Assembly (NCBI GenBank): GCA_903813345.2
Contig: CAIIXF020000011.1
Span: forward strand, 30,682,166 to 30,746,165
Direction of reading: 5' to 3'
DNA length: 64,000 bases
Origin: Owenia fusiformis
Taxonomy: Eukaryota; Annelida; Polychaeta; Sabellida; Oweniidae
The translations under genes and the position numbers were made by a program. The first letter of the stretch is position 1. Each line of letters opens with the position of its first letter. The notes under the pieces were generated by a model. That model ran no database searches and was not told where the DNA came from. It worked only from the letters and a program-made list of their open reading frames with translations. Below, piece after piece: positions 3,569 through 37,317 of this stretch.

Positions 3569-3769
3569 TTGAGATGGTTAAGGACGCACAGATTCCTCGT
3601 TATAGACCACAGGTTGGTTCTGGCTGAGCTACTTGCACAGGAGAAGGCAGGAATGATATATACGCGTGCGACAACAGGGTTTAATGATGAGAAGGTTACT
3701 CATTGCCCTTTACACATACTAGAAAAAATGAAATCTTATATCACACTACCAACTCCACAAATGGAATAA
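3569..3769 (+). other. In-frame open extension after the cGLR stop codon
   Basis: The frame of the upstream nucleotidyltransferase runs open for 66 sense codons after its TGA, ending at TAA or equivalent near 3769. It has no ATG near its beginning. It could be 3' UTR, the relic of a longer C-terminus cut by a recent nonsense mutation, or a readthrough extension. The context (TGA followed by TTG) is not the known high-leakage TGA-CTA signal. Confidence 0.35.
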
Positions 3770-6470: not shown

Positions 6471-6570
6471 CTAGTGCATCATGTGTATAACTGCTGCAAT
6501 GACGAGGAGAAGAATGGAGCTACCAGCTATTCTTGGGGCACTTGCAGGACGGCATTTAAGAGTGTGAAAC
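6471..6570 (-). CDS. Cache/EGF gene exon 9: C-terminal GPI-signal-like tail
   Basis: 100 bp after a TTGTTCCAG acceptor, ending in TAG. It encodes 32 residues: a short polar piece with one Cys, small residues (PASAP, AGSS) suitable as an omega site, then a hydrophobic run (ILLLVIAAVI) and a very short end. This is typical of a GPI-attachment signal. A minimal type I membrane anchor is the alternative. Confidence 0.8.
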
Positions 6571-9500
6571 CTGGAACAAAGAAATGTATCATTTAAACAC
6601 TTTCAGCGCTTTTGTACAATAAAAGAGGTCAAGTTTTCAACTTTGCATTAACAAGCAAATTGTCACCACCTGCCATTTGTTTAAGACCAGTGTTTTCAGT
6701 AGGTTTGTCCAAGATTGGGTCCCTGGGACGTAACGATTTTCAAAAAATGCGTCTCCCCTAAAAAAACTGGGTCCCTTGAAAAAATGTTCCCGGGAATTCA
6801 AAGTCACGCTTTTACACTAACCAAAATAAAATTGATGAAATTTTGAATCACTTTTGCTATTTTAATTTACGTCCACCCAATCTTGATTTACGTCCTCTCC
6901 ATTGAAGGACGCTGTTATTGAAATCACTGAAGACACTACACTCTGAATGCCAAATTCTGACTGCCAATACAAAAATTTGGAGACCAAAACAATTAATGGA
7001 AATGCATGGCACAACCCTGACCACTAAGATTACAATTAACATTTTATTCCGACAGATATCATGCTTTATTACTTACTTACAACTACAATAACATCTTACC
7101 TGTGTCGTACTTCATCAGGATTTGATTCACCCTTCTCAGCCGCAATCATTTTATTGTATTCAGACTCCATGGTCTGTCCATCATAGTACCAGGCTCTGTC
7201 GTTGAAGGGGTACTCATAACCCTGGCGACACTCGCACTTGTATGATCCCTTGTTAAACTTCTTCCCAGGCAGATGAACACACTAAAAGATAAACAACATA
7301 TCCTCAATTATGTGCAGTGGTATCACCATGGATATGACTATAGACAGCTTTTAATGACATTATTTGTTGCTATGGTGGATAAGTTGGGGTGAGATACTCG
7401 AATCAAATCCATTTCTTCATGTTCATTGTAGCAAACAAATATTTCTCTTTCCTATAATGAGAAATTGCACTTTCCAAACATGTATATGATAAATGTTAAC
7501 GACATCTCATGTCATGTGATCTGTTTTTGACCAATCAGATATAGTGAAACATTACAATGATCAAACATGTATTTATAATTCTGTGAGATGATTATATATT
7601 AGTATGGTATATTTGAGGAGATGAAAAGCTGAGGCACCATTCTCATTTTGATTGATTTGTTAATAGTTATGACATGCAGAGTTGAAATCAGGGTAGATCA
7701 CATCATACTAGCTGCTACGAAATCGTTCCTGTTTGGCACCAGGGGAAAATCACAGTTTCAGCACGTGATTATTCCGCCAGTGCCAAGCTAGAGCAATCAC
7801 TATCTACATTGGTTGCTATAGATGCATACACATCATTGTGCAATCATCTAGTTGCTATGGTCACACCTAAAACAATGTAAATGCACTGTTGTGCCAGTAA
7901 CATTATCAGGACGTTAGAAGCAACTATAAGGTCTCTAGGATGTCACAGCAAACAATCAAAATCCACTATGGTTGCTATGGTATGGCACGGCAAACAATCA
8001 AAATCCACTATGGTTGCTATGGTAACAAAAGATTACTATCCTGATACTTTGGTCTAGAAATTAACTTTGCTGAGATATCAACAAACAATATATATATAAA
8101 GATAATCTGATTTTTTAAGCAAACCCTATTTTCTGCACTCTAAATACATACCCTTGTGCTCTCGTAATGGCAACGAGCGGTACTCTTGAAAGCATTGGGG
8201 ACATGGAAGGGCATTGGACATTGGTGGATATCTAGCTCTGCCAATAAGACATCTACAGTGGCAACACCCCTAGAATCATAAACAGAAAAAATATTCAATC
8301 AGGCTGTACTGGTTATTGTAAATGTTTTCACAAATTTGGTTTTAACATTTTCGTTTTTATTTACATTTTTTTTATTTAGACAGCATAATATATGATACAA
8401 CAGAGTCCAAGTCAAGACAATATTGACCCTGTACGATACATAATTCAAGATGACCCTTAAGTGCAATGGAGATTAACTGGTTTGTAAATAGTAGCAATTT
8501 GATTTTAATAACACATCAAGCTGAGTCTCATATGCATTATGCTAATAAATGTACATCGAAAAAGAAATCTATAAGACATATTGGATTGCTTTAAACAATG
8601 GAACTTGTTCACTTTTGGTGAAATTAATTAGGCAGGACAGGTGTCATGACCACAAGCTTGTATATTTTTTTAATCATTTTAATAAAAATAACTGAACATG
8701 TGGATAAATATACTGTAACTATATTCATTAAATCTAATAACTTACTTGAATTCAATATGGGTGCGGAGGCTGTTCATTCCAAAGAAAGGGACAGAATAAG
8801 TGATGACCCAATCGTTGATGCCAGTATGGCCACCGCAGTCAAAGTATGGCTTGCTCCACTGGCCATCATCCAAGGCAGGTGCTCTACAACAGTAAAAGAC
8901 GAGGGAGCATTCAATACGTGTATTTAATATAAAATAATACGTTCAGAGATTACTCAATATGAGGTTCAGGATATTGGAATTATCCAGAAGCAAATATAAT
9001 GTATCTGTCTGCTAGCCAAGATGAAAATCTACATCCTGCCCACTGTTGAAAATAATCATAGTTTTGATTACATTCTTTACACTCTGCACTTTGGACATAC
9101 TTTTGCGACAATAACTATCAGGTAAATGGGTAACTTTCTATTTATTTCTTAAATGTCATAACATTTGAACACATGTAGCAATTGTAACCAAATAATGAAG
9201 TGGACCAATACTAGTTTAGCACAAAAATCTGATAAACCATAACTGATCTTCATCCTGAAACCTTAATTTCATAATCAGGAGTTTCACTAGAATTTCTCAA
9301 AACAGGCTAAATAAATGAAAGCAACAAGCAAAATTAATTGAAATCATAAATTTAACATGGAAAGTAGAAAAGTCCCTAAAAACAACAGGTGATTTTTTAA
9401 AAACAACCAATGGAAATCGCCTGTTGCCTGCTGCTATTGAAACCCCTGATAATCATCAATGTATTGTTGATTGAGTTTGGCACCCACCTGTAGAACATTG

Positions 9501-12500
9501 GGTAATGTTCAAATCTGTTCAGTGCTGTTCCTTTCAAGTCTGATCTGACCAAGGCCTTTGTAGTCCATTTCTTCAAACCATAGACATTTGACTGCCATCT
9601 CTCCTTAATATTCACAAACCAGTCATCATTGATGTATGGCTCACCATCAAATCCAGCAAAATCCACAACCTTTGTTCGTGTTCCACTAGCTTTGTATGCA
9701 TACGGCCCAAAGTACTGACGCGTTGTACCATCCAGATTTACAAACTTATCAGTATCAAAGAAGATACCACTTCCATGGATTTTATAATCAGCCATCACAT
9801 TTGCCATGACTTCCCCAAACAGTTGCTCGTAGTTGAGAGGACGGTCTCCACGCAGGGTTCCATACTCCTCATAGAAGTCAATATTCTCCATGAAGTTACT
9901 GATAAAGTGTGCCATACGGAGAGCGGTCCTTGCCTGATTCTGAAGTTGTTCATCAGCTCCATATGCGACATCTCCCGGCAGGAACAAGTCATCTTTGGTC
10001 ATCAGATGACAGTTGTCAGCCTTCACTTGTAGTCTATGGTTGTCGATTCGTTGAAATCGCTCAAATGCTTCAGCATCAAAGAAATCACGTTTCACACGAT
10101 GTTTCGAAGTGTCTCTTTCATATCGTGGTACAAATGATCGTTTAACTTTAGGGGCTTCCTTGGTAATCTAAATCAAAACATCAACAGTCAATTTAATTTC
10201 CTTTTTCGCAGAGTTAGATCATTACAACAGGAAATCAACACACAGTAAATAGTAATGGTGTCAATTAACCGCTTGAGCATTAACCGGTTAACCGGGGTTT
10301 TTTACCGGTTAAAGTCGGTTAACCGGCGGGAAATTTGAACTTATAATTTCAAATGAAATCTTCATCTTCGATCTTGAAAGTTGAAAAATGATATATCGGC
10401 GTTTATTTTTTACGTTCGTCAAGCTTTACGCTATTCTATGTAAGTAAGCGCGGGAAAGCAATGTGGCAGGGATTAAAGTTGCTGATTGGATGTTTGTAAG
10501 GAATTATCGGACCTATCACATGTATGAGTAGCTCACATGAAACTGACGCTTGAAAACAAACAGATTAAAATGCAAAGTAAGCGCGGGAAAGCAATGTTGC
10601 AGGGATTAAAGTTGCTGATTGGATGTTTGTAAGGAGTTATGGGACTTATGACATGTATGAGTAGCTTACGTGAAACTGACACCATAAAACCAAACGGATT
10701 AGCATGCAAAATAAGCGCAGGAAATAACAGAATTATACACGGTCAACTAACCGCCCATAAAAACTCAGACCGGTCAAGGCATTATCGGCGGTTAATCGGT
10801 TAACCGGTTAATACTTGACACCTCTAGTAAATAGAGCACATAACGCTTTAAGATACAGCTCTATAGAGTTCATATAGGTGATATCACATTATACATTGCA
10901 GTAGATTTCTGACTTTCCTAATAAATGGTATAGAGTAAATTAAAAATACACATTAAGAGTTGTGTCCAACTGTTGACAGTTCTGGAAAAACAAAGCTAAT
11001 TTCAATCTGGTTGACCACACATGCCTCATAATTTAATTTTGGTATTTTTATCACTGGCTAAGGATGAAAATTTCAAGTGAGTGCAGATTAATTCTAAAAA
11101 TCCTCAATTGAGTGCACCTGGTTGATGATTTACTAGACCTACCTTCTCTTCTGGTTTAGGAAGGGCCCTCTTAGATACAATATGTCGTCTGGCCCTTTCT
11201 TTAACCTCAATCTCTGGCTTAATAACAACATTCATAGCTTCGATAAATGTCTCCTTTAGGCTAACAGGAGTCTTGCGCTTTGTTCGACTCTTCAACATTG
11301 TACGTTTTTTCCTTGATTTAACTAGATCTGACTCAACATGTTTTCTTGAGTTTATGGCTCGTTTCTTCCGTCCAAGGCCTGGAATAACTCCTGTATCTAC
11401 TGGTCTTTCTCCATCCAAGTTTGGTAAAGTTTGCTTCCCTAGAATGTCATAAATTATGAAATAAGTAAAAATAAAAGCAACTCTGTAAATATTTTGTAAA
11501 GTGAATACATTTGGGGACCAAAAGGGTATTCCCTGTAGGTGTTCACTATTTATAAGGTTTGTGTCAATGGAATTCGAAGAGGGATGTGTTATCACTACAT
11601 CATTGCATGATTTCTTCTCAAGAAAATGCAAATTTTCTTTTGGGTAAACATTTGCCACTCACTATCACTCTACTATACCTTACCACTAGAAATGCATAAG
11701 ATACTCTGTTTGTCCAATTGTATTGTTTAGTATATTTTTGAGAGTACCCTATTAACATCTAACGTCATCCGATAAACTATTAATAAGGAACAGACAAATA
11801 AAAAACAAATAACATAATGATTACTAATAAGCCGAAAGAATTGCTCATGAACACCTAATGCAAGGTATAGTAGAGTGACTATGCTTGCAATAATAAAATG
11901 TTGAAATTATTTGCCACTTGCTACACACACAACAATAAAAGTTTTGAATTATTTGTCAGCTTGCTACACTCGCAAACATAATCCTACTTAATCTACACTG
12001 CTTCGCATAAACTTTCCCTATTCTTTATGGGTCAATAATAAAGACTGATGTTAATTAACACACCCAAGCTACAAGGACTGAACAATTTAAAAAATAAGAG
12101 TTTTTGATTATAATAATTACCTCTTGATTTTCATTCCTTTACTTTAGTAGATTTAAAAATAAGAGTTTTTGATTATGATATGTTAATGCTTGATTTTCAG
12201 ATCAGATCTTTAGTTTAAGAAAATAAATTAACTGTGAGTGATATTTTTCATAATAAATACAGGGATCTGCATACAGATAAGACAAATTTAGATGCATCAA
12301 CCCTCCTCATCTTTTTTTCCCACTGTAGCACATTTCTGAGCTCAGGTGGGTGATGCACCAAGAGAACAATGCTATGGAGACAAACTTACATCCTGTTTCC
12401 AGACACTGAAAACCTCTCTCATGTTCCGTATTTGTCGCTCTTTCTATGTCAACCCCCTCGTATGGCCCATTCTGGAATGCGGGGTAACGGTAACCAGGAC

Positions 12501-15500
12501 GACAGGCACAATTGTAGCCACCTCGTTTAAAACCCCAACCGTGATGTGGCTCACACTGAAATATGGAATTCAACTCATAGAAATATATAGACATCAGGCT
12601 GGTATTTCTTAAATAAACGCTGGAAGGAAAATGATGAAAATGATTTCACTGAGCATATTGTGTTGACTCTAAGATGGTAAACCATGAAAAACAAATCCCT
12701 AAAAGTAGTATTTACTATTTCGTTAATTAATTACAGTCAGTGCCATTTACATGAAATATTTCAAAATGTAAAATATTGATAAAATAATATGGAAATATTG
12801 AAAGATTAAACGGGGTATTTTTTATTTTCATGTGACTTCCAATACAACATGGTAACCATAAATTGAATGGTTCGATTTTCAAATAAGAATGATTTCTAAC
12901 ACCTATGGAGCGTTGCAGAATAATATAATACATTGCAATTGCAATGGTTAATTGTTAACAGTATGGCAAAGTACACGCTATACAGTTGATTAAGCTCCTT
13001 CTTCATTGTATGTCATTGCATTTCTGAATTGTCTGGAAAAGATTATAAATTTTGGCAGTATATTCACGCAGGTAACATTGCTTTCTGACAAACTGTATCT
13101 TCTGATTCATTCATTTCATGATGATATATAGTAATGCTGACATTTCTTTCACACATTTTTTCAAAACCTTGCGTAATTTGATGAGTTCTTAGGGCAGATA
13201 TAATAGAGAGATTTCGCACATACGTGAAAGTACACTTATAACGTATACTTATACTTATAAGTAAACGTACAAGGTGTTTCATAATGTGGGTTTTTCGTCA
13301 GGAAAGATCTTCTCGGACTGTAATAAATAAAGGTCAAAGGGATGCCATTTGTACTTTCTTGAATTGTAGCATGTTTAGTTGATCCAAATGTGTTTGTCTA
13401 GAATAAAAAGGCTCATATATAGTACATATGTTATAGACCCATCTCTTCTCAAATTGACTTTTTGGAGATGCTCGTTATGAAACACCCTGTATGTCATTTG
13501 TTGAGCTACTGAATGGGTCGTTTCCAGGAATTGCTAGAACCTATTGGTTTGATTGGTGTTTCAAATTGATGTTTAAAGTATTTGATTGGATACAGTTCCT
13601 ACTCAGCCAATTTATTTTAAAAATGCTCGCGGTCAATTGTTCCACACACATGTAGGTAAAGCTTTATACGGAGATCAAACTGTATACGTTTATCATCTAC
13701 GTATTTCTACCGTTTTGTAAGTTCATTGAACTTATACTGATCGTGAAAACTTTGAAATAATCAACTTGTTTATGTGATGACTCACTTTAAAGGATCATGA
13801 CTCACTTTAAAGGATCGTGTTTATAATACACTACAAGTACTAGGACACGGAAGCAAGCATTTAATTATAATGTGAATAATCTACACGTGCAGATGATAGT
13901 GCATTCACAATTTCTAGTTGACAGAGCTTTTCTATATCGGGAATAGTTATGTTCCATTAAGTACAATTTAAAATTTATTTTAGTAAATATAATAGTTCGA
14001 CATGACCCTTTAAAGTATACGTATACGTATAAGTTGTACTTTCACTTATGTGCGAAATCTCTCTAATAACACAAAAGGAAGGTTTTAATAACAAAAAATG
14101 TAATTTAAGAAGTTCTTAGGGCAGATTTAGTAATTCAAAAGGGAAGTTTTAATAACAAAAAAATATCAAGGCATACAATAAGTCTCAATTCACAAGAAAC
14201 CCCCCGGGCAGCCCTGGTTGAAAAAGTATAAAGAAATGAGCCAAATATCAAACAACATTACACTAAAAAGGCCCTAGTCAAAGTTTGAAAATATATTTTA
14301 GCATTCAACTTTTATCTCATGCACCTCCATTGTTTTTTCAAATATTTGAATTACTGGACCATTTCAAAATATATTTAACAAGGCATTAATATGCAAAATG
14401 TCACCACCTGCCATTTGTTACAAATGCCATTTCACAATATATTCAGAGATGTCGCTACATTTTCAAAATAACATTTTCTCTATTCTTAAAAAATCAAATC
14501 CTTTAAAATAAGCCTTTTAATTTCAAACAAATTTTGCATATACAATTATTTCAACTGTGATGTTGTTTGAAACATTACTTGAATCCTTTAACTATGTAAA
14601 ACAGACAAATTTTTATAATAAAACTTACGCAATTTTTGGAGGGATGAGGAATGCCCCACTCAACTTTATTAGATTCTTAAAACCCCTGGAACTGTTACCA
14701 ATAACAGGTAGAATCCAGTTAACATTAAAACTGTTGAGATGTGATATAGATTCTTAAAACCCCTGGAACTGTTACCAATAACAGGTAAAATCCAGTTAAC
14801 ATTAAAACTGTTGAGATGTGATATGTTCATAAAACCTGATAATTAATTGTGTTGGAAACTTGAGAAAACTAATTTCATTGCATGCTGTCTTATCATGTAT
14901 AGTTATAATTAGATGTCGAAATCTTTTGCATGTCAAACCTCTTTTGTTCACATTAGGGTTATTTTCTTTGGGATCTACTGCGGTCCTTGTATTTTTCTAC
15001 CTTATTTCTTAAAGCCTTTGGAAAATATCTAAACGAATAAATACTGTACATGTTAAAGGGCATCAACAAAGCTAGTATCAACATGCAAAATGTCACCACC
15101 TGCCATTTGTTATAGATGCCGAACAAAGAACGCCAGATGCCACACAAAAATTGAGACCATAACAATGTAACCACTTTTGGTGGCGACATAAAAACTGAAG
15201 GTAAAATTAGACAATATTTGAAGAGCGAAATATCATTTATTTATACTCACTTGTGGCAGCACTCCTAGCAGATGAACTTTTATTGCATGTGTACATCTAC
15301 ATGTTTGGCATGCATGATTAATTTATGGGATAAATGCATAATAGATAGGTATTGGCAATACCTATTGTTACATGGCATATACAGGAGGAGTGTGTACATG
15401 TATTACTTGAGAATACTGAGTTCATACCCCATAATCAATAATAGCCTCCCTTAATCCCATACAAAAAACAATACTAACTTGTGTGGTTGGATCACATCGT

Positions 15501-18500
15501 GCTATGTTCTGAAACATATTGGGTGGGGGGTTACCCTGGCCTGCAGGGCACGGGTTCAAGTCAATCTTCAAGAAGTCTGTATCCATGACGATTGCACCAA
15601 CAAATCTAAATAACAACAAATGCATTTCTGTGATCTCAATCATGTAATAAGTAGATATACATGTATAAAAATGATGTTTCTGCACGATATAAATATATAA
15701 TTAAATACACTGTATACAGCTTCTGTGAAACAAAATAAGGCCACTGTAATTAGAGATAGGTATAAGGATAAGGCCACATGACATTGTTGTTTGACGGGTA
15801 CTGCATACAGCATTCTTACTTCCCTTCGTTCTTTTTTATTCTCTGTAATTGAAATATTTTTAAGCTTTATTTATTCAATTGTTGAAATCAGATAACTATA
15901 ACTGCAAATTCCTTGCCTTCATCAGAAATTGATTAACTTTGCGAATTGATAATAAAAAAAATTCTAGAAGACTTAATGCATTTATAGCTTCCATGAGGAA
16001 ACAACCCCAATATATAAAACCATGAAGCCGGATGTAGCCTACAATAAACAATGAAATGATATGAGTATGCACTTTATATACAAATTTATATAAACATTAT
16101 GCAAGTATTTCATCTGTGTCAGGTGAAAGAGGCCTGATCAGGATATAACACATACTTGTGCAGTGCTTTACAAAAGTATTAAGTCATTAAACAATAATGA
16201 GATTTTCATGTTTAATATAACAGCAACACTAAGGCATAGTTTGTGACTTAACGATTTGCTCCGCTGAACCCAACTTCAATTAGTTACTATGACAACCACT
16301 ACAGTAACAAATATCATCATGTCTTATAGCCAAATTTTTACATCTACTCTATGTACGAGACTCTGGCCCTGATAGTACTAGTTATTTATCGCTAACATCT
16401 GAATACAATGAGAAGGGGTTCACAAGTGTAAGTCACACCAACTCTAATTTAACGTCAGATACCAAACAATAGAGTTATCATCACTTATTAGAACGAAACT
16501 GACAGAACAAAGAGTTCACTCGCGATTTGTTAATTCATTCTGTTTCTGAATTCTTCAACCTTATGTAATTTCCAATACCTCTCTTATCGCATGATAATTA
16601 CTGCTCATAAGAATGTGATACATTTATTGGATGTTCACGAAATTATGGCATCAGGAAGACATCTTGGTTTACACTGACTAAGGCGTGGTACCAATTATTA
16701 AATGGAAACACAACTACAGAATACTATAATTGTCTGTCATGTAAAACTTGGTTACTTAGATTGCTTTCTACTCAGCAGTGGCTCTAGCACACCTGGGGTT
16801 ATGATGAAAATAGTGTATGTTTTAATTACAAATCCATTAAGAGTATTCTAACAAGGCACAGGGTGAACAATAGAGACCTGAAACATATAACAAACAACAT
16901 TTGTAAAATTCTGAAGTAATTCTGTTAAGTTGTACTGGAATTGCGATGACAAGTAAAGTGAAAACAGCCACCCACACACCTGCAAGCTGACAATATCGTA
17001 TCTTTTTTTGGTATGATAAAAATTGATTTGTCTTATTCTTCGTTGTTATTTATGCTACTCATTCTCTTTATGTTGAGATATCATGATGATTTGTATTTCT
17101 CTGGTGATGTCTCAATGACATCATCAATCATGAAGAAAAATTATTCAATATAAGTTGATAAAAATAAAAGTTATATGGTACCTAATTTGGTAGAAATATC
17201 AAAATTATTCATAACACATTCAGAAACATTCACATTCAGAAACTATAGAATCTCTCCCTGTTGCATCGCAAATCTCTCCAGAAGGACAGAGAAGGAGAGG
17301 ACGTGGCTTACCACAATGCCAGAAAGGTGGAACACAAAATCAATTTTTAAGAATGAAATTCATTTTCTGCATTGTCATATTAGAAAAATGAAACAGATTA
17401 GTTCAAACATTGAAATTTAAAATGTAGTAACTTATCTCGGTTAAAGGCCGCCTTTCCATCATTCTTCTTTGGCTATTTAATTATCAACTTGTCATAACTT
17501 TTGAAGAATTAAATTACAGGTTTTACAACTTTGTATTATTTCTTTGAACAAGAATACCTTTTTAATAAATGCCCATTTCTGGATGGAGTTACAAAAGTTT
17601 GGCAAAATCACTCCATCTGATAAGGATACATACCTGCATCTTCTCTTTTGCGTCTTTCTTTCATAGGCCTAACTATCCTATACAACATTTCAAAATTCCA
17701 ATTCGAAGGTATCAATTGTTTAAATAGTTTGCGTTTTTTTTTCATGATGAGTAGTTAAATATATAGCATGATTCAACATCCTCAAGAAAGATTGCTGGTA
17801 CAATTTGAGATTCATTTTGATTTTCGCTTCTCTTCTGTTGAATAGGTGCAGATCAGTCTTCCAACTAGTACAGTTTTGATACACTCTTCTGTTTCAGTTG
17901 CATGATGATCATTGAAATTACACGATCAACTGGTGTCTTCATAGTCAGGTTATATATTAATAAATAATAGCATGAGCCAATCAAAGCGCCACACCTAGAT
18001 TATATTGCAGCTTGATGTGAAGCAGCCATACATACACAGAGGGTTCATACCAAAGATTGGTCAGAATATAATATAAGAAAATAAAAATACAAATTAATTA
18101 TTTTAGTTTAATCTTCAATGATCTTGCAGATCTGAAGTAATTTTTTTAATATATAGTAAAATAAAACATATAATGATGTATACATTGGCGTCAGAAGGGG
18201 GAGGACGTTGGGGGCGACCGCCCCTCCCGCCCTTTCCCAGATTTTTTTAGATTTGAAATCGAGCCTAGAATTGAAAGCTCTAGCAAAAGTTTTTTAAGTC
18301 AAAGTCAAGTTTTCTTTCTTAAATTTGAAAATTTTCTTTGGGCATGGGCCCTAATCCACCTAGATTGCGTTTTGCGTGCGGCGCGCTTCACGCATGACCC
18401 AGCCATACCCAAAAGTCGCCCCCTCCCTTGGTAAATCCTTCTGACGCCCCTGTGTATAATAGTATATAATGATGTAAAATAAAATTAAACAAAGTAGGAT

Positions 18501-24500: not shown

Positions 24501-27500
24501 CAGCACATAACATTTTGCCTGATTGCAGTTTGCACACTTCGTTTAACATATGCCAGCAGATGAACTGGAATCAATATTCAATGTACGTACAGTACACCTA
24601 CTAATAAGGTGTGGAACTGTTACAAAGAAACAGTGGAGCTTCGTGTCAAATTGTGTTGATCGTCAAATGGGATGGAATATTATATGAACGAACAAAAGGA
24701 TATTATCTTTAACATTCATGGCACAATTCCAATTATATGTGGTAGCTGGGGAAACTAATACAAACACGAGTTTTACCAAAACAACTGGCCACGAGAGATT
24801 TTCGAATGATAATTCCCGACTGTGCGCCCGTTTATGAAGAAATTTGAGGTAAGCTGGCGTGGGACATGGGTGAAAATGGTAGATAAATATGTGATTCAAC
24901 TTATTAGACCATGAACAGATCGGATAATTATTGTGAATTACGATTTAGATGCAGTTCTATGACCTACCTGTCCGTGATTTCTACTCGAAGGGGCGGTATT
25001 TCTACTCGAAGGCGCGGTAACCTCTACGGAAAACGGCGGTATGAACGGGAAGGGGCGAATTTGATCCCTACCTGTGAACATGTTATATACAGGTTTAAGT
25101 GTAAATTGAAAACAACATGTTATATACAGGTTTAAGTGTGAATTGAAAACAACATGTTATATACAGGTTTAAGTGTAAATTGAAAACAACATGTTATATA
25201 CAGGTTTAAGTGTAAATTGAAAATAACATGTTATATACAGGTTTAAGTGTGAATTGAAAACAACATGTTATATACAGGTTTAAGTGTAAATTGAAAACAA
25301 CATGTTATATACAGGTTTAAGTGTAAATTGAAAACAACATGTTATATACAGGTTTAAGTGTAAATTGAAAACAACATGTTATACAGGTTTAAGTGTAAAT
25401 TGAAAACAACATGTTATTGATCTGCATGCATACATCTACAACATATTCTGCAAGTTGGAACCTAAATGAAAATAAAATATACAAAAAAATTTTAATTGAA
25501 AGGAATAAATGACCTGCTCTTATTGAGGTCATCATATCAAACTGTGCTTTATGTATACCCTGCGTGCAGAGTCTAGTTAAACTACACTCTGCCTAGTAGA
25601 GACCATATTACAGTTTAGGAGCCCCGCCCCCACGACGGGTACTGGTGACAGTTTGGGTAATAAATCACTTTTGACCTACGCGCTGACCTTTCTTCCACCA
25701 ATCAGCGAGCTTGAAGAAACATACGCCAAATGCGTTCTAATTAAATATGCCAAATGACCCCTATCTCAGCTTATGTGTTCCCGAGCATTTTAATATTTTC
25801 CAAAGTATTATATGACATGCTATTCTTCATGATACACCTAAGAATGATTCATTTTGACCATAGGGATATTTGCCAATGATTGCACCTCTCCCTTTCATTT
25901 CAGTAATTATCAAAATAGTTTAAATACAAACTATATTATATTCTATAAAAATGTGTAAGTATCCACATAAAAATATGAAAAATATTTCCTATTTCATTAA
26001 GTTTTGGTACAATAATCGTGAAAATTTTATGAAAATTCCCATTATGCCAAATCTACCTTGCAACAAGAACCAGAACAACGGCAACGCCAAAGCGTAGCGA
26101 ATCCCATTGAACAGAAATGGCTGGCATTTTTACATACGAAATATATAGCAAATATCATAAAATAACACCCATAAGAAAGGCCACCATTTTCAAAATGGTT
26201 GATCACTAGCATCACTAGCCAAGTTGTCATCAGAAGTAATACTAGTATGCTTTTAAGTAGCCACATATAAAATTCTTAAAAGATTGCCATGCTGGCCACT
26301 TTTTAAAATGGCCGCTTACTACTCAAAATGTCATAAGACAGTATGCAATCCTTACGAGTATTCGTATATCAAATATGAACAAAATCGCTCTATTACTTTA
26401 TGAGTTATAATAATAATGTAAAATAACGGGGTCAACCCAGTTGTCCGAAACCCAGTTCTCCGAAACCCAGTTTTCCGAAACCCAGTTGTCCGAAACCCAG
26501 TTCTCCGAAAATTAGAGGATCTTATTTGAAAAATACAATTTTTTTAAACGAATCTCGTTGTCGCAACCTCTGCGAATCACAACATAACATTGGAATAACG
26601 TTGACATCATTGCAAAATTAGGCTAAATATGCTAAGTCAAGACGTTAATTGTTTAATGTTTAGCCTACGAAAGTTCATATACAGGTGATATAGAATGTTC
26701 AAACAAACAAAGTTAAATTATGTTATTCTCATTATAAAATGGCGCTTACACAACATACATAGATAGGGGTCTACAATTTTTAAACCAATTTTCTTTATGG
26801 CCCATGGGCCTTTTTCCAATAGGTGATGAGCGTTCATAAAAGGAAAAATAGCTTTCCCAAGCCAGTGGGCATTTATTTAGTAAAGTTGACATGTACATTT
26901 TTTGAAACCAAAACTTATTCTTCATTTACGTACTCTGTTCGAGAAATAGAGATTAAATTAAAAGGATGAAGTGAGTACATGGCGAAAATGAAACTTCTTG
27001 CGAATGGGAGAACATCCATTTTGATACGAGGACAGCCTGCCTTCGTTTCCAGTTGATCCCAAGTGGTTAAGTTAAGAATGTTTTGTTCTTTTACGATTTG
27101 ATAAAATACAGAGACTAAGAAATTAAATGCGACGAAATATTTTGACAACGTAATATGTATACTGTTTTATTCTTAAAGTACTATATGCGTAAACTTATTT
27201 TATCTGTTTCAAAATGATTCATTTTATTTTGCCTATATAAAAGAGATTGAAGAAGATAAAATAAACTGTTCCGTAATATATATTGTGTTTTGATAACCTT
27301 TTTTAGAATCACAATGTAAAATAAATCCCCCGTTCCTGCATGAAACTGGCCTTTTTCGGAGTAATGGGTTTCGGACAAGTGGGTTTCGGACAACTGGGTT
27401 TCGGACAACTGGGTTTCGGAGAACTGGGTTTCGGACAACTGGGTTTCGGACAACTGGGGTGCACCCAAAATAACACACATAAAAATGATGGCCATTTTTC

Positions 27501-30500
27501 AAAATGGTCGACTACTCCCCAAAGTTTAATTAGACAATGTGCCATGCTTAAAGTATTGTGGGAATTTTTAATTCCCCCTGAGTAGTACTAGGGCTTGTGA
27601 AACATTTATTTTACTGGATTTTATGTTATTTCATCTTTATTTCATGTTCCGTCCCTGTAATTTGGATGTTTACTTGATCAGCAAGCTGGGTTGGAATAAA
27701 TTTGCATAATTAGGCACCCAGCAACAGAGCTCAACCAATCAGATGGCTTCATTTGAATTTCCCTCCAACATAAGTTATAGTTTTCCCATGATGCAACTTG
27801 AGATGTCTGGACTTTAGCGTGAGATCGTGACCTGTAAATCAGAGTAAACCAAGACTTTGCAGAGGAAACACCTCGTCAGTTTATATCGTTTTATGTGAGA
27901 GCGTGGTGGATTTGAATTGAGAACTATATTGGACAATCTACAGTTTATTTGGATTATTTGCTGCAGTTTTGCATTCGTTTTGCATTCGTTTTCGACTGTG
28001 CGAGATACAAGAAGATAACAGCCGGTTTTGGGTGAGTTGGCAATTTGATTATTGAGTTTGACGCCATATTGCTGTCCGCCATTTTGATTTCTTCTTCCCA
28101 GAATTCCTAGCGGTCGGCCATCTTTATTTTTACGGAAGTGACATCATTTTAAGAAGTAATTCCTCCTCCGAGTAATTAAGGCTCTTGTCTAATCTCAGTT
28201 TGATTGATATTCGAGAGTCGTGTCTGCTCTGAGTACTGTCAGCTCTGAGTGATTACTCCTCCAATTATTTAAGTGTTATATCTCCTTCGAGTTATATTTG
28301 GTCCGAGTAGTTACAGCTCTGTCTAATCTCCGTTGTGATTGATATTCGAGAGTTGTATCTGCTCCGAGGATTGCCAGCTCCGAGTGATTACTCCTCCATC
28401 TAGTTGAGAACCATACCTACTCCGAGGACTCACTGCTCCGAGTGCTTACTCCTCCATCTATTCTAGAGTGGAATCTGCTCCGAGGGTTGAGGATACAACT
28501 CCGTCTAATCTCAGTTTATGATCGATATTCGTGAGTTGCTTCTTCTCCTCCTCCGAGTTATTGATGATCCGAAATTGATACAAGTTGCTGAACTTGACGC
28601 ATCCTCTGAGGTGATTTGACTCCTCCAGAAGTTAGATACTGAGGTTACACTACAGGAACCAAGATATTTCTGTGTTGCAAGGTTTACTCTCATTGGAGCC
28701 AAGGTTGCTCTACTGGAACTAAGGTACTCCACGATCGAGAAGTAGCAGCTCTGGTCTCTCACCATCTGATTGACATTCCAGAGGTGTTATTTCTCTGTAG
28801 AGGGTGAAGAGGTTTCTCCCGTGAAGTGGCGACTCCCTGAGCAGAGGATACTCCCGGAGTCTGGACCCCTTTCACGAGACAGTTTTATAGAGACGAGAAG
28901 ACTCCTGGAGTGGAAGGTACTCCAATAGCTAGGGTCTTGTACAAAAGAAGAGGGTTCTCTTGTGAAGTGGCGACTCCCCGAGCAGAAGATACTCCCGGAG
29001 CCTGGACCCTTCCACGAGACAGTTTTATAGAGACAAAATAACTCCTTGAGCCAAGGTTACACTTCCGGAACCAAAACTCCTGGAGCCCTGATTCCTCCGA
29101 GGTGAGAAGACTCTGAGGGACATTGGTGTGTTTACTGGGAGCAGTCACATCCCAGGTCTTATCTCAGCGGAGCCCCGATTCCTCCGAGGTGAGACGACTC
29201 TGAGGGACAGCGCAGTGAAGATTATTTGGAGCATTTATAACTTGGGTCTAATCTCAGTTTTGATTGACATTCCTGAGTTATTCCTCCTCCATAGATATCA
29301 CATTGAAGCCGTGATATAGACGAGACGATACCTAGAGCAGAAGGAATTCCCCCGAGGTTGAATTCCAGTTTAGAGGTGAAGAAAGCTGCAGAGGAGCAGA
29401 TCCTCCTCAGGCCAATTTACCAGTTGGAGCAGAAGGACCTCCTAGAGGGTGAAGATAGTTCATAGGAGCAGATCCTCCTCCTCTTACAATTATTCAAGAA
29501 GGAACAATTACAGAGACATTCAAGCTCTATATAGACATTTTGAATTTATTTGTATTATTATTTTACATTGGAATAGAGTATAAAATCCCTGTATACCATT
29601 GTTATATTTCCATCTTTGAAAGGTAACTGCCGTACCACCAAACCAGGTCGGCACCCGTGTATAACACCTCCAAGATCCCTTATATCGTCCCTGGCCTTTC
29701 CTGAAGTTTGCATACAGGGTACTCCTGGGAATCGGCCCGGCGCGACAGTATTCACATATCAAATATGAGCAAAATCGCTCGAATATTTTTCGAGTTATAG
29801 TAAAAAAATGTAAAAATGACAGCCATTTTTTAAAATGGCCGCCAACTTGGTGAAGTGTCATGAGACAGTGTGCTAGGCTCATGAGTATTCACATATCAAA
29901 TATGAACAAAATCGCTCCAATACTTTTCAAGTTATAGTAAAAAACGTAAAAATGGTAGCCATTTTGGCCGCCTACTACCCAAAGTGTCATTAGACAGTGT
30001 GCCATGCTTATAGTATTCACATATAAAATATCAACAAAATCGCTCTGCTACTTTTTGAGTTGTAGTAAAAAATGTAAAATAACACACGTAAAAATGGCGG
30101 CCATTTTTCAAAATGGCCACCTACTACCCAAAATGTCATTAGACATTGTCCCATGCTTAAAGCATTGACATACCAAATATGAACAAAATCGCTCCACTAC
30201 TTCTTGACTTACAGTAAAAATGTTAGATAACACACGTAAAAATGGCGGCCATTTTTCAAAATGGCCACCTACTACCAAAAATGTCATTAGACATTGTTCC
30301 ATGCTTAAAGTATTCACATACTAAATATGAACAAAATCGCTCCACTTATACTTTTCAAGTTACAGCAAAAATCGAAAAATGACGTGCAAAGGCAGCCATT
30401 TTTCAAGATGGCTGCCATGTATTTCTTCTATATTTACATTTCTAGCTTAATCAATGTCCTATATAACTTTTTTACATTTAAAACATATTGCTATTACAGT

Positions 30501-32903
30501 TTTATAAGCAGTACCTAAATTACTGTAAAATCGGCACTAAAATGGCCGCCATTTTGAAAATCGGTTTTCGAGCAGAACTTCTACCCCCATTGGGTATATG
30601 TGTACAAAATATGAACAAAATCGGGCCAACGGTATTTGAGTTATTGCCCGGACGGACGGACAGACGGATGGACGGACGGACGGACGGACGGACGGACGGA
30701 CGGACGGATGGAGGCGTTCCCTATATCCCTCCGAACTTTGTTCGATGGGATAATAAATCAAGTTATACATATACATACAATCAATCAAATATCTGTATCT
30801 AAACATAACAAGAAGTTATTATATCACTGGACATTATGATCTAATTTACAGGTAATATATCACTTAAGATTTTCAACAATGTCTATCATCGCACCTCTTA
30901 CAAGATAAGCCACTTCATATTTGACATATTACCTTCTTATTAGTCGAAGTATTTGATTATAACTTCTCATCATGTACTTTGTTTTTTATAATTGATGTGA
31001 CTGAGGTAATTTCTCTATGGCACTTTTAGGTCAAAACATCAATGGTTCAATCTTTTTTCATAGAATTAATTCATAGAGGATCATCTTTATCTCCTATTAT
31101 TCAAACCTCATCTACCATTTATTACTATTTAATATTGAAGCTCTTCTCCTCATTGAAGATTTCATTGTTTGTTTTATTTTAATAATGAAACTTGTTTTGC
31201 TTTTGTAAACAAACATTATAAGATGCATGAAAAAGTGACACATTGATTTTTGACCCAGCTGCAAGATGGACTTAAGATACTTTCCTCCAGTAATATTAAG
31301 TCAGATAAAAAATAAATGAAATATAATATACTGTATACATGTAGTTCTTTGGTTATATCTCAAAATATAAATCTGTTAATCTTAAGGGTAATGTTTACCT
31401 TTTTCTTAAAAAATTAAATTTGTTAGACTGGTATGTTTATTTTGTATGATTGATGTTATTGTACAATTGTAAGTTAATTTAAAAGGAAAATAAATGTTAT
31501 TTAAAAAAAAACACATAAAAACCACCTTTTTCTTGATAATATAAATTTCATTTTTAAGAATCCAGTAAGAAGTCAACAGATACATGGTGGCATGGCCTTA
31601 CTCGAGTAGCTGTAAATTCTAAATTAGCGATCCAGAAGATGTGAACCAATACACTGATCACTTTATGTATGTTTTGGAATTTTTGGTGAGGTAATAAGAC
31701 CAAAACTTGCACTTCAAATTGTGATGTGGAAAAATGGCGGACATATGATTTCAAATTTTATGATTACGACATGACCAGTTGTTCATGCAGGAATATATCT
31801 TTACTGGAAGGCCACGATACGTGGCCACGATATAGTGGCCTTAGAAGAAGGTAAGCATGGCCCTTATTTATTTTTGATAGATTTTTCTTACAAATATTTG
31901 TGTGATATATTATTGGCATAAATAAGGGATATGTTCACATTATGTTCTATCATAATACATACCTCTGTCGGCTCAAATCGGTCCAGTTGAAGATATATCT
32001 CGGCACATAGTCTAATACAGGTGAGGTTGCACTTATAATCCACTTGTTAGATCTGCCACAGTCGTAATAGGGGGCGGTGTATTTTACAGGAAGATGTTCT
32101 ATCTCACGCTGACCTGGTGATGAGGGTCCGAAAAATGCTCTGCCCTCGTAACCTTCTTTATTGATGAATTCTCCTGTTTGGTTGGAGAAATGAACTGCAA
32201 CATCATATGTATGTTTTCTTAAAGAGTCTAAACTACTGTCTGCATCTGGCATCCACATGTTGTACCATTCGTTAAGTTTGTAGTCAGAATTTGAGTAATT
32301 TGAGCCTTGCCCTGCGCCATAATCTTCGATATTAATTGTATAATTTGTTGGTTCACGTAGCCAATTAGTTGGCTCGTTGTAATCATCAAACCGCCAAGCT
32401 CGGGCACCAAATAACGGCAATGTGTGATTGAACTCAAGATTTGTATACCAATTGGCGTATGTATAGTGATTGTCCCACATGATGGCAGAGCCGTTGATAC
32501 ACCCAGGATTCGCAGCAACATCTGCCTCAGCACTCATATAGTAGTACATCAAACCAGGTTGCATATGAAATTCAGTTTTAGTTTCGTTCAGAGCTTGGTT
32601 CATGTAACTGTAGAAATAGGCACGGTTGAGCGCCATGTTATGTAAATGGAGCAAACATGTTCTGTTCGGGTAGATTAGCTGACTCAAAAGTTTATTTGAC
32701 ACTGGTTTTTGAGCAACTGAGTCTGGATTCAACATGAGCTCTGCTACAGGCTTTGCTCGACAGTTTTCAGGAGTAATAGCATCCATCCTATCATTTATTT
32801 CATCAAAAGCGTCATAAGTCATCCAATCGTAAGCTCCTTGGCCGATAACTGCTCCAAGGAGGCAAAATAGACACACCAGTGTGTTCAGTTTTATAGTCTC
32901 CAT
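6471..32903 (-). CDS. Tandem Cache/EGF ectodomain protein related to GPR158/GPR179, probably GPI-anchored
   Basis: Nine GT-AG exons (31963-32903, 15479-15605, 12390-12555, 11143-11438, 9488-10167, 8746-8883, 8152-8269, 7100-7281, 6471-6570) join with matching phases into 915 residues. Domains in order: signal peptide (1-22); Cache-like module 1 with its conserved YYDC...W strand (269-278) and EGF-like cysteines (to about 406); a basic linker (413-537) with furin-type sites RKKR, RKKR, RTKR, RARR and RVKR; Cache-like module 2 with YFDC (750-753) and a second EGF-like unit (to about 845); and a C-terminal hydrophobic tail (about 901-911) with no cytoplasmic domain. The Y-x-x-C, W-hh-T, F-x-G and hDhxxC signature followed by EGF-like C-x-C matches the GPR158/GPR179 ectodomain, which binds glycine in GPR158. 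No seven-transmembrane part is present. The GPI anchor, convertase cutting and ligand are inferences. Confidence 0.82.
6655..6682. repeat. Fragment of the ~105-bp dispersed repeat
   Basis: It contains the TCACCACCTGCCATTTGT core shared with 14398-14420 and 15085-15190. Only the first third of the unit is present here. Confidence 0.5.
6687..6845. repeat. Dispersed repeat shared with 40404-40550
   Basis: About 150 bp in the last intron of the Cache/EGF gene match, in inverted orientation, a block in ARID1 intron 1. Shared landmarks are TTGAATTCCC(A/G)GGAAC, a TTTTTGAAAATC stretch and TGGTCAAAC/TTGGACAAAC. The ends are not clearly defined. Confidence 0.5.
7100..7281 (-). CDS. Cache/EGF gene exon 8: EGF-like unit 2
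   Basis: 182 bp, acceptor TTTTAG, donor GTAAGA. It encodes C-VHLPGKKFNKGSYKCECRQGYEYPF and an acidic stretch, paralogous to exon 3. Like exon 3 it begins in phase 0 directly on a Cys codon. Confidence 0.84.
7945..8027. repeat. 42-bp tandem duplication
   Basis: Two copies of a unit containing GCAAACAATCAAAATCCAC and GGTTGCTATGGTA lie head to tail with a 42-bp period in the intron between exons 7 and 8. Confidence 0.7.
8152..8269 (-). CDS. Cache/EGF gene exon 7: end of Cache module 2
   Basis: 118 bp, acceptor TTCTAG, donor GTATGT. It encodes GVATVDVLLAELDIHQC, the counterpart of exon 2's VGAIVMDTDFLKIDLNPC, then further cysteines of the second EGF-like unit. The exon arrangement of module 2 mirrors module 1, as expected of an internal gene duplication. 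Confidence 0.83.
8746..8883 (-). CDS. Cache/EGF gene exon 6: conserved Cache strand of module 2
   Basis: 138 bp, acceptor GTTGTAG, donor GTAAGT. It encodes KPYFDCGG and DWVITYSVPFFG, the counterpart of module 1's YYDC and KWIISATSPVL and of the GPR158 Y-x-x-C / W-L-V-T segment. Both ends split codons and match exons 5 and 7. Confidence 0.84.
9276..9448. mobile_element. CAGGGG-type MITE with 5-bp target duplication, copy 1
   Basis: 173 bp bounded by CAGGAGTTTCA and TGAAACCCCTG, flanked by the direct repeat ATAAT on both sides. Close relatives sit at 52011-52184 and 40604-40775, and eroded ones near 49610 and 55095. The interior includes the repeated word pair CAACAGGC / GCCTGTTG. No coding capacity. 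Confidence 0.75.
9488..10167 (-). CDS. Cache/EGF gene exon 5: Cache module 2
   Basis: 680 bp, acceptor GATTTAG, donor GTGGGT. It encodes residues 511-736, starting with the last linker sites (KVKR 517-520, RVKR 534-537). A second Cache-like module follows, aligning in outline to module 1 (for example NDDWF against NEPTNWL). The donor lies only 39 bp from a small inverted-repeat transposon at 9276-9448. Confidence 0.83.
10253..10826. mobile_element. hAT-like non-autonomous element
   Basis: 574 bp with terminal inverted repeats of the form TA(A/G)(T/A)GGTGTCAA...TTAACCGGTTAACCG. It is flanked by an exact 8-bp direct repeat GTAAATAG, the target length typical of hAT transposons. Inside, a 133-bp segment starting GTAAGCGCGGGAAAGCAATG is tandemly duplicated (10444 and 10577). 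No transposase is present. Confidence 0.8.
11143..11438 (-). CDS. Cache/EGF gene exon 4: basic linker with convertase sites
   Basis: 296 bp, acceptor TTCTAG, donor GTAGGT, phase 0 out. It encodes residues 412-510, a low-complexity basic linker rich in dibasic and R-x-K/R-R motifs (RKKR 435-438, RKKR 454-457, RTKR 463-466, RARR 493-496). It contains no cysteine, in contrast to the modules on either side. Confidence 0.8.
12390..12555 (-). CDS. Cache/EGF gene exon 3: EGF-like unit 1
   Basis: Acceptor TTTCAG and donor GTAAGT; 166 bp, phase 0 in and phase 1 out. It encodes C...GWGFKRGGYNCACRPGY, the same pattern as the GPR158 EGF-like region that follows the Cache domain. The Trp codon is split with exon 4. 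Confidence 0.83.
13206..14063. mobile_element. Inverted-repeat element with TAATA target duplication
   Basis: 858 bp with ends GAGAGATTTCGCACATA and its complement, extending inward through GTGAAAGTAC and a TATACGTATA palindrome. The 5-bp repeat TAATA flanks both ends. It contains a nested TA-flanked element at 13268-13491 and a 22-bp duplication (GACTCACTTTAAAGGATC) near 13780. Confidence 0.68.
13268..13491. mobile_element. Nested mariner-like MITE
   Basis: 224 bp with ends TACA(A)GGTGTTTCATAA and TTATGAAACACCCTGTA. The terminal TA is compatible with a TA target site as used by Tc1/mariner elements. It lies inside the 13206-14063 element and is therefore younger. Confidence 0.6.
14395..14425. 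repeat. Fragment of the ~105-bp dispersed repeat
   Basis: It carries the ATGTCACCACCTGCCATTTG core found also at 6655 and 15092. Confidence 0.5.
14671..14824. repeat. 77-bp tandem duplication
   Basis: Two adjacent copies starting AGATTCTTAAAACCCCTGG differ at one visible base (GGTAGAATCC against GGTAAAATCC) over 77 bp. A duplication this similar is likely recent and may be polymorphic. Confidence 0.85.
15085..15190. repeat. Dispersed ~105-bp repeat, fullest copy
   Basis: It runs from GCAAAATGTCACCACC to CACTTTTGGTGGCGACATA. It is the most complete copy of the family also seen at 4787-4886 and, inverted, at 52656-52757. It lies 290 bp downstream of exon 2 in transcript direction. Confidence 0.65.
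15479..15605 (-). CDS. Cache/EGF gene exon 2: end of Cache module 1
   Basis: The acceptor TTTAG and donor GTTAGT bound 127 bp. One base completes the split Arg codon from exon 1, and the translation (FVGAIVMDTDFLKIDLNPC) continues the GPR158-like strand pair exactly. This supports direct joining across the 16-kb intron. It ends in phase 0 with cysteines that begin the EGF-like unit. Confidence 0.83.
18183..18452. mobile_element. GC-rich inverted-repeat MITE
   Basis: 270 bp with ends CA(T/G)(T/G)GGCGTCAGAAG and CTTCTGACGCCCCTG, flanked by a 6-bp direct repeat TGTATA. Inside the ends both sides carry GGGGGCGAC / GTCGCCCCC. It is much richer in G+C than the surrounding intron. No coding potential. 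Confidence 0.65.
20821..20945. repeat. AT-rich imperfect palindromic repeats
   Basis: Repeated AGCTAATTA/TTAAGCT words alternate in both orientations, so the stretch can fold on itself. It is a simple-sequence patch without assignable function. Confidence 0.4.
21249..22502. mobile_element. TTAA-flanked palindromic MITE (piggyBac-like), copy A
   Basis: The ends are TTAA-AGGAATATTCCTGG and CCAGGAATGTTCCT-TTAA. The arms are long inverted copies of each other, sharing for example GTTGAGAGTCAATGACATC and its complement. The right arm is split by a TA-flanked element at 21795-22441. A second copy sits at 42762-43371. TTAA targeting is the hallmark of piggyBac (also Kolobok). The insertion point is the TTAA inside a 37-bp minisatellite unit. 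Confidence 0.75.
21795..22441. mobile_element. Nested TA-flanked foldback element
   Basis: 647 bp bounded by TACAGGGTGTCCCGAAAGTA and its complement, with TA at both ends (Tc1/mariner-like). The arms stay complementary inward (for example GGCAAATCAATGTAACTTTG and its inverse), so most of the element is a hairpin. It interrupts the TTAA element between GGAAAG and TATATGATTATAGC, where the uninterrupted copy at 42762-43371 is continuous. Confidence 0.75.
22503..22559. repeat. Left remnant of the 37-bp minisatellite
   Basis: It holds about 1.5 units of the unit reading ACATGTTATATACAGGTTT...GTGTAAATTGAAAACA. It is separated from the main array at 25077-25417 by the 22560-25076 insertion. Confidence 0.75.
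23523..24099. mobile_element. Nested inverted-repeat element with minisatellite core
   Basis: It is bounded by TCTCGCGAATAGGCC and its complement, followed inward by GGGCGTTTATTT on both sides. The word recurs inside (GGGCGTTTATT near 23560-23600). Its core is the tandem array at 23881-24027. I could not find a convincing target duplication. Confidence 0.6.
23881..24027. repeat. GGGTTGAGTTGACTT minisatellite
   Basis: Eight or so degenerate units of 15-20 bp combine GGGGTCGAGTTGACTAA, GGGTTGAGTTGAC and GGGTTGACTTGAC. It lies within the inverted-repeat element at 23523-24099. Confidence 0.8.
24170..24560 (-). pseudogene. Relic of non-LTR retrotransposon reverse transcriptase C-terminus
   Basis: Conceptual minus-strand translation, with stops and a frameshift, gives GENLKSITHIPYL, then KANKVLWFLRRNL, then EYASSAWDPYRQK, then LEQEQRRAARFV. 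These are the conserved C-terminal blocks of jockey/CR1/L2-type LINE reverse transcriptases (YLGV, LGFLRRNL, LEYASSVWDP, LEQVQRRAARF). The copy is broken by at least two stops and one frameshift. It sits inside the 22560-25076 element and is not expressed as an intact protein. Confidence 0.75.
25077..25417. repeat. 37-bp minisatellite, main array
   Basis: About nine near-identical units with an exact 37-bp spacing (TGTTATATAC at 25081, 25118, 25155, 25192). The unit contains the TTAA used by the 21249-22502 MITE and the AACAT used by the 22560-25076 element. Confidence 0.88.
25418..26079. other. Intronic stretch without recognisable content
   Basis: It includes a locally GC-rich patch around 25620-25740 with CGCCCCC and CCAATCAGCG, but no coding exon. 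Nothing else can be supported. Confidence 0.4.
26080..26419. repeat. Left part of a ~130-150-bp tandem array with GGCCATTTT palindromes
   Basis: Units combine a block ATGAACAAAATCGCTC...GAGTTATA with a palindrome of the type GGCCATTTTNAAAATGGCC. The array continues at 27475-27556 and 29752-30649. The gaps are two insertions, 26428-27466 and 27557-29747. Confidence 0.7.
26428..27466. mobile_element. 1.04-kb element with tandem-repeat inverted termini and 8-bp duplication
   Basis: Each end carries four to six tandem units of about 16-17 bp (ACCCAGTTGTCCGAA) in opposite orientation. The outer ends read GGGGTCAACCCAG and GGGTGCACCCCAG. The exact direct repeat AAAATAAC flanks it. Uninterrupted copies of the host repeat near 30075 and 30225 show the empty site (AATGTAAAATAACACACGT at 30074). 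The 8-bp target suggests hAT or P type. The termini recall foldback/Galileo architecture. The interior is non-coding. Confidence 0.82.
27475..27556. repeat. Middle fragment of the GGCCATTTT tandem array
   Basis: It carries one partial unit (ATGGCCATTTTTCAAAATGG, then GTGCCATGCTTAAAGTAT). It lies between the 1.04-kb element and the 2.2-kb insertion. Confidence 0.7.
27557..29747. mobile_element. 2.2-kb TG...CA insertion, candidate solo LTR
   Basis: It begins TGTGGGAATTTTTAATTCC and ends GGCCCGGCGCGACA. It is flanked by GTAT on both sides and splits the array word AAGTATTCACATA. TG...CA ends with a 4-5-bp target fit a Gypsy- or BEL-like LTR. I find no second LTR, primer-binding site or gag/pol, so a long solo LTR is the simplest reading. 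The first part has CCAATCA and ATTTGCAT promoter-like words. From 28140 it is filled with degenerate CTCCGAG repeats. Confidence 0.6.
28140..29480. repeat. Degenerate CTCCTCCGAG repeat field
   Basis: The words TAATCTCAGTTT(G)ATTGA and ATTACTCCTCC recur (about 28191, 28324, 28504, 29249). A larger duplicate containing GTGAAGTGGCGACTCCC and CACGAGACAGTTTTATAGAG occurs at about 28820 and 28960. It is internal to the 27557-29747 insertion. Confidence 0.7.
29752..30649. repeat. Right part of the GGCCATTTT tandem array
   Basis: Five to six degenerate units of roughly 125-155 bp each contain CACATATNAAATATGAACAAAATCGCTCC, a GAGTTATAGTAAAAA run, and the GGCGGCCATTTTTCAAAATGG palindrome. The last unit leads directly into the ACGG microsatellite. 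Confidence 0.8.
30650..30712. repeat. (ACGG)n microsatellite
   Basis: About fifteen ACGG/ACAG/ATGG tetramers, preceded by GAGTTATTGCCCG. It sits at the end of the 29752-30649 array, the usual tail position for a dispersed repeat family carrying a tetranucleotide end. Confidence 0.92.
31963..32903 (-). CDS. Cache/EGF gene exon 1: signal peptide and Cache module 1
   Basis: It encodes residues 1-313 plus two bases of codon 314. The N-terminus is a classic signal peptide (hydrophobic LVCLFCLLGAVIG). At least eight N-glycosylation sequons (for example NRT, NGS, NHT, NYT, NYS, NQT, NWT) mark it as extracellular. The donor is GTATGT. The start is the first ATG after a short candidate leader behind a TATA-like box. 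Confidence 0.85.
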
Positions 32904-37299: not shown

Positions 37300-37317
37300 A
37301 TGGACTATGACTTCTGA
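37300..37317 (+). other. Upstream ORF 3 overlapping the ARID1 start
   Basis: A five-codon ORF (MDYDF, stop TGA) starts 7 bases before the main ATG in another frame and ends inside the coding sequence. Initiation there would favour termination-reinitiation or leaky scanning. Confidence 0.35.

Follow-up and report, generated by a model that had tools for sequence, protein, structure and literature searches.

GPR158 (mGlyR) and GPR179 are class C receptors whose extracellular part is formed by a Cache domain, which carries a cysteine pair, and a six-cysteine EGF-like domain. GPR158 was an orphan until recently, and GPR179 is not known to have a ligand. According to PMC8611064, three disulfides lie in the EGF-like part of GPR158, and the spiral motif that comes next holds another two. 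The combination of Cache and EGF is described in PMC12716839 as a stem-metazoan innovation of the mGlyR/GPR179 receptors.

The gene described here encodes a protein with the same kind of ectodomain, including the six-cysteine EGF-like part and the Cache cysteine pair, and the inner intron phases of the gene are those found in the receptors of the same genome. However, in contrast to GPR158 and GPR179, the ectodomain is present in tandem, the spiral stalk with its two disulfides and the seven transmembrane helices (7TM) are missing, the protein ends in a GPI-like tail, and convertase-type motifs are found between the modules. Decoy and accessory receptors derived from signalling receptors retain the ligand-binding part and lose the signalling part, a trait also seen in this protein. 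To our knowledge, there is no case of a class C receptor with a doubled Cache and EGF ectodomain and a GPI end. Among the papers listed by literature searches, three of which were broad and are represented by the best 12 of 2,683, 12 of 1,658, and 10 of 4,464 records, there was no GPR158-type protein that lacks the 7TM region or has two modules. The papers listed for the first and third of these broad searches do not mention GPR158 and are hence of little weight, and homologues may well sit unnamed in animal protein databases.

The gene is encoded on the minus strand of the window (the whole stretch of 64,000 nucleotides that was analysed, from contig C11 of a 498-Mb genome that is probably animal, judging by its introns and gene content), with its start codon at 32903 and its stop codon ending at 6471, both exact. 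A reading of the sequence alone, which gave coordinates but no strand, had proposed nine exons joined in phase, and this model holds: all borders are GT-AG and phase-compatible, and the product is a protein of 915 amino acids with no internal stop. The signal peptide (residues 1-21) is followed by module 1, with its Cache and EGF parts, up to about residue 411, a linker up to 537, module 2, whose last residue is C889, and a 26-residue tail. Exon 1 (31963..32903) encodes the signal peptide and most of the module 1 Cache with eight N-glycosylation sequons, and is 67% identical to its counterpart in a second gene over residues 16-315. The signal peptide is assigned from hydropathy, residues 4-20 being hydrophobic with a 17-residue mean of 2.2. 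Exon 2 (15479..15605, phase 2 in and phase 0 out) holds the end of Cache 1 and EGF cysteines 1-2, and exon 3 (12390..12555) the remainder of EGF-like domain 1 with cysteines 3-6, as placed by the gene model and the cysteine positions. The basic linker is encoded by exon 4 (11143..11438), whose frame lacks a signal peptide and contains the convertase-type motifs RKKR, RKKR, RTKR, and RARR, and by the beginning of exon 5 (9488..10167), where RVKR stands directly before module 2, the rest of the exon encoding most of Cache 2. Exon 6 (8746..8883) continues Cache 2 with a conserved PYFDC segment, and exon 7 (8152..8269) contains the end of this domain and EGF cysteines 1-2. Cysteines 3-5 of EGF-like domain 2 are found in exon 8 (7100..7281), placed in the same way as exon 3, and the sixth, C889, in exon 9 (6471..6570), which has a homologous exon in the second gene and encodes the GPI-signal-like tail, with its hydrophobic run, and the stop.

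The parallel exon arrangement that had been proposed for the two modules stands only in part. All seven modules compared (two from the window gene, two from the second gene, and one from each of three receptors) share two introns, one of phase 2 within the ectodomain and one of phase 0 ahead of the third EGF cysteine. The Cache domain is nevertheless encoded by one exon in module 1 and by two in module 2, and the intron leaving the EGF part is in phase 1 in the former and in phase 2 in the latter.

The derivation of both modules from a GPR158-type receptor ectodomain, also put forward in the sequence-only reading, is supported by profile and structure-database matches. In a Pfam scan of the whole protein, the model for the GPR158/179 extracellular domain (PF22572) matches two stretches (E 6.4e-49, 165 bits against a cut-off of 28.1), which agrees with the earlier claim of two Cache and EGF modules in one gene, and the Cache model PF22673 scores 41.9 bits, above its cut-off of 27. 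In a scan of single frames, the PF22572 cut-off of 28.1 bits is passed only by the frames of exon 6 (8745-8942, 30.0 bits) and exon 7 (8143-8298, 29.2 bits), whereas the module 1 frames individually remain below it (13.0 and 24.7 bits). The NCBIfam scan gave no match. The best PDB match of module 2 is GPR158 (E 1.6e-12) and that of module 1 is GPR179 (E 8.8e-8), and a profile made from six module sequences finds GPR158 with an E value of 1.8e-27 and the bacterial sensor 3lic with 2.6e-7. The two modules are 23% identical to each other (BLASTP E 2e-15, in a single comparison), and the EGF parts hold six cysteines, which would pair into three disulfides, in all four modules of the two tandem genes. 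A structure predicted for exon 1 without the signal peptide, with part of exon 5 as the sole companion row, had a mean pLDDT of 28.9, and the Cache fold is therefore assigned from sequence models. Module 1 is strongly divergent, with a branch length of 2.78 in the tree described below, and may have lost the ability to bind a ligand. Neither 24 pattern stretches from viral contigs nor 11 stretches from prokaryote genome contigs contained any relative, these collections being non-animal and not addressing the spread of the family in animals.

At least five loci of this ectodomain family, with at least eight matches, are found in the genome at E <= 0.001, counts that are lower bounds with scoring limited to the best candidates. 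Two of these loci are tandem genes, and the other three (C3, C7, and C8) are receptors, in which the ectodomain is followed by exons for a Cys-rich stalk and the 7TM region, with downstream 7tm_3 matches at E values from 1.7e-8 to 0.0015. Eleven probes were taken from the stalk and transmembrane exons of these receptors. Each of the three TM7 probes matches both receptors from which it was not taken (E 8e-17 to 1e-12), and the same is true for the three stalk probes (E 1e-8 to 1e-3) and the three TM4 probes (E 2e-5 to 2e-3). The TM2 probe C8_TM2 recovers one of the other two receptors only, at an E value of 0.013 that is close to the best match in the window, and for this reason it is the stalk, TM4, and TM7 probes that support the absence of TM exons. 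Six probe matches at E <= 1 were obtained within the window, with E values between 0.025 and 0.53 and the best one in intron 2 at 15177-15055, and the stalk probes of the three receptors gave none at this threshold. No spiral Cys-rich stalk was found, the single cysteine of exon 9 being the sixth of the EGF-like domain, and no long hydrophobic stretch besides the signal peptide and the tail appears among the 12 top windows listed. The lack of a 7TM region noted from the sequence alone is thus supported by probes that do recover receptor exons and whose lowest E value in the window is 0.025. Since neither a stalk nor a 7TM region turned up in these searches, the window protein is a member, as judged by sequence, of the GPR158/GPR179 ectodomain family and not, in a functional sense, of the receptor family.

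The two-module architecture draws its strongest support from the second tandem gene, located on the same contig, on the plus strand near 11.263-11.269 Mb, 19 Mb away from the window gene. It encodes a protein of 898 amino acids with the same order of signal peptide, module 1, linker, module 2, and tail, in eight coding exons, the counterparts of exons 5 and 6 being fused. The identity between the two genes is 68% for the first modules and 73% for the second, and the homologue of exon 9 was found by tblastn with 57% identity over 30 amino acids (E 2e-4 against a local database of small size). The modules show a pN of 0.15-0.26 and a pS of 0.82-0.87 in the comparison of the two genes, whereas pN reaches 0.50 for the linker, 0.48 for the tail, and 0.60 for the signal peptide. 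From these values, the modules are judged to be under purifying selection, and the pattern of substitution to be that of two working ectodomains with a spacer between them and a targeting signal on each flank. The possibility of a pseudogene was ruled out, given that the modules carry few non-synonymous and near-saturated synonymous differences with respect to the second gene, and no stops. In a tree built on 109 columns, the first modules group together (100/100), as do the second modules (98/99), and the pair of GPR158 and GPR179 stands apart (100/99), the remaining, deeper branching being without resolution. Since first modules pair with first and second with second, the modules were already distinct, and the tandem arrangement established, before the two genes split. 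The fetched stretches yielded no N-terminal Cache exon for the C3 receptor, which was therefore included only in the short tree and in the exon-phase check.

The window protein contains five RX[KR]R motifs, all of them in the linker, the number expected from shuffles of the entire sequence being 0.43, an excess partly due to the basic linker, whose basicity such a shuffle does not allow for. The second protein contains two against 0.48 expected, a number reached in 7.6% of the shuffles and not beyond chance. Both of the latter are aligned in the same columns as motifs of the window protein: RKKR at 454 corresponds to RRKR at 462, and RVKR at 534, which directly precedes module 2, to RVKR at 528. 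The presence of convertase-type sites between the modules, two of them common to both genes, suggests that the modules may separate, although the fast evolution of the linker means that cleavage could also be incidental. On the strength of these motifs, a cut by a proprotein convertase at one or both shared sites is rather probable, and it would leave the anchor on module 2 only. The cysteine counts of the window protein are even in each module (10 and 8), so no cysteine is obviously left to hold the cleaved chains together. In both proteins, the eight sequons are confined to module 1, and seven of the eight are in common alignment columns. The linker motifs, this distribution of sequons, the second gene, and the three receptors are all absent from the sequence-only reading.

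Two further observations concern this part of the proteins. Module 1 of the second protein has an odd cysteine, C150, for which no partner is apparent within that module, and the window protein has the extra C83 and C135 there. The basic stretch before module 2, KRSFVPRYERDTSKHRVKR at 10143-10087 on the minus strand of the window and KRVWAPRHQRDTSSFRVKR at 6550-6606 of the fetched second-gene stretch, is alike in both genes in an otherwise divergent linker, and with dibasic sites on either side it could be an excised peptide.

In the position occupied by the stalk in the receptors, the window protein has CRPASAPRIAGSSILLLVIAAVIHMMH and the second protein CREAGAPRVSSGSVLLISVIASIMAFFGR, each starting with the sixth EGF cysteine contributed by the last exon (C889 and C870, respectively). 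A GPI signal requires several small residues in a row, then a short spacer, and hydrophobic residues at the very end. By eye and by hydropathy, this type of pattern is present in both genes, with small residues preceding the final segment in each, and to that extent the GPI-like tail of the earlier reading is upheld. The omega site is presumably located in the small-residue run ASA/AGA after CRx. As a control, all AG-started phase-2 frames of 25-60 amino acids on both strands of the window were compared with exon 9; a terminal hydropathy at least as high was seen in 7 of 1212, exon 9 included, the other six ending at three places. The removal of the tail and its replacement by a GPI anchor are considered likely.

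Several alternative readings of the gene can be weighed against these results. It could be an ordinary GPR158-type receptor with its 7TM exons farther off or alternatively spliced; the reading past the window covered 8 kb, and a rare isoform might escape it. Against this, none of the eleven probes matched at E <= 1 in those 8 kb or in the 16 kb at the second gene, and their best window match is the one at E 0.025. Moreover, a Mab-21-like frame of opposite orientation terminates 2.9 kb past the stop codon, and the nearest 7tm_3 match among the 79 listed in a whole-genome search is about 220 kb past it, on the opposite strand and in its own frame of 756 amino acids, which makes a hidden receptor extremely improbable. 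Hardly more credible is an erroneous join of two adjacent genes or two transcripts with one module each, an idea that the 16-kb length of intron 1 would favour. Neither gene shows a signal-peptide start in exons 4-5 or in the adjacent upstream open frame, and the junction of exons 3 and 4 (phase 1, with a split Trp codon) is conserved in the second gene together with the linker exon. The recurrence of the whole module order in that gene also makes a chance join unlikely.

The other two alternatives concern the processing of the protein. The linker might stay uncut, with both Cache modules in one chain packed like a built-in GPR158 ectodomain dimer, an arrangement compatible with GPI anchoring. 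The two modules are kept together in both genes, and GPR158 ectodomains are reported to dimerise side by side in PMC8611064. The five convertase-type motifs, two of which have a counterpart at the same position of the second gene, and a divergence like that of a spacer or propeptide argue against an intact linker, which is considered possible but fairly unlikely. Somewhat less likely still is a short transmembrane end, or plain secretion, instead of a GPI link. The hydrophobic core of the tail is indeed short, with only about 10 residues before HMMH, and the terminal residues differ between the two genes; however, the hydrophobic run is at the extreme C terminus, the last 18 residues are uncharged (with one charge in the second gene), small residues come before it, and there is no cytoplasmic segment.

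The preferred reading, in which linker cleavage and GPI anchoring are combined, is that of a protein of the cell surface that originated from the ectodomain of a GPR158/GPR179-type receptor. Its hydrophobic tail would be exchanged for a GPI anchor, and a convertase cut in the linker would leave module 2 on the anchor and free the N-glycosylated module 1 from the chain, the latter either remaining non-covalently bound or being released. Without signalling of its own, the protein would bind a small ligand or a receptor ectodomain or, alternatively, act as a trans-binding partner. The ligand trap, co-receptor, and trans-binding partner put forward in the sequence-only reading are all candidate roles. 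Taken as a whole, this role of a processed, GPI-anchored, receptor-derived binding protein that modulates a ligand or a receptor seems, from its sequence features, a reasonable and slightly favoured proposal. That its targets would be the three GPR158-type receptors of the animal is a tentative suggestion. A more elaborate version remains speculative and rather doubtful: a family of tandem sensors with a cut linker, in which a GPI-held unglycosylated module would be accompanied by a heavily glycosylated module, released or exchangeable, that ferries ligand to GPR158-type receptors or competes at them, the basic linker perhaps giving an active peptide.

The working analogy for this role is alpha2-delta, a Cache-bearing, proteolytically matured, and membrane-tethered accessory protein. 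The VWA domain is a defining part of alpha2-delta and CACHD1, and the Pfam scan of the window protein at E 0.01 gave no match to a VWA model; because of this, alpha2-delta serves as a functional analogy without implying membership. In the literature, alpha2-delta and CACHD1 are Cache-bearing and extracellular, like the window protein, and the proteolytic maturation and membrane association of alpha2-delta resemble those proposed here. The window protein differs from both in its GPR158-type Cache and EGF modules, and whereas alpha2 and delta are described as disulfide-linked, no spare cysteine is seen in it. A natural soluble or lipid-tethered ectodomain, present in two genes beside three receptors, would help to find ligands or partners of this receptor class. 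It would also show that the Cache ectodomains of class C receptors can become accessory or decoy proteins, and would give a simple test of the action of GPR158-family ectodomains in trans.

As for the ligand, the sequence-only reading had mentioned the sensing of glycine by GPR158, and the comparison of residues gives no support for extending this to the window protein. The residues of GPR158 that we take to contact glycine are R173, Y269, E271, and D307, letters with which the PDB chain numbering is consistent. The positions of Y269 and D307 are conserved in both modules, and E271 is replaced by D in both. The position of R173 is occupied by Gly in all six sequences aligned (the two modules of the window gene, the two of the second gene, and two of the three receptors), in a region where the alignment is weak, the N-terminal stretch scoring 7.5 bits. 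Glycine as the ligand of the window protein is thus not supported by these residues.

Other features of the window include a single open frame on the plus strand at 2318-3568, which is the convergent frame mentioned above and has a weak Mab-21 nucleotidyltransferase match (E 0.0049, 17.4 bits) under the curated cut-off of 24.1; it looks to us like a cGAS-like/Mab-21 gene. Frames with a high content of Q, N, M, P, and G are open on the plus strand at 37301-38092, 50587-50937, and 61399-63645, and perhaps belong to the exons of a regulator of chromatin type, for instance ARID1/Osa; Pfam at E 0.01 gave no match in 37301-38092, 61399-61728, 61955-62353, or 62395-63645. Intron 1 (15606-31962) contains dense tandem repeats, with units of 37 bases at 25040-25446, 16 bases at 23864-24038, and 15 bases at 27339-27473, and an inverted pair at 21819-22415. 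Minisatellites derived from exons are also present in two of the receptor genes (L013 at about 2858-3666 and L017 at about 8198-8513), where a piece of a coding exon is repeated several times beside the exon itself, a Cache segment in one gene and a TM3-like segment in the other.
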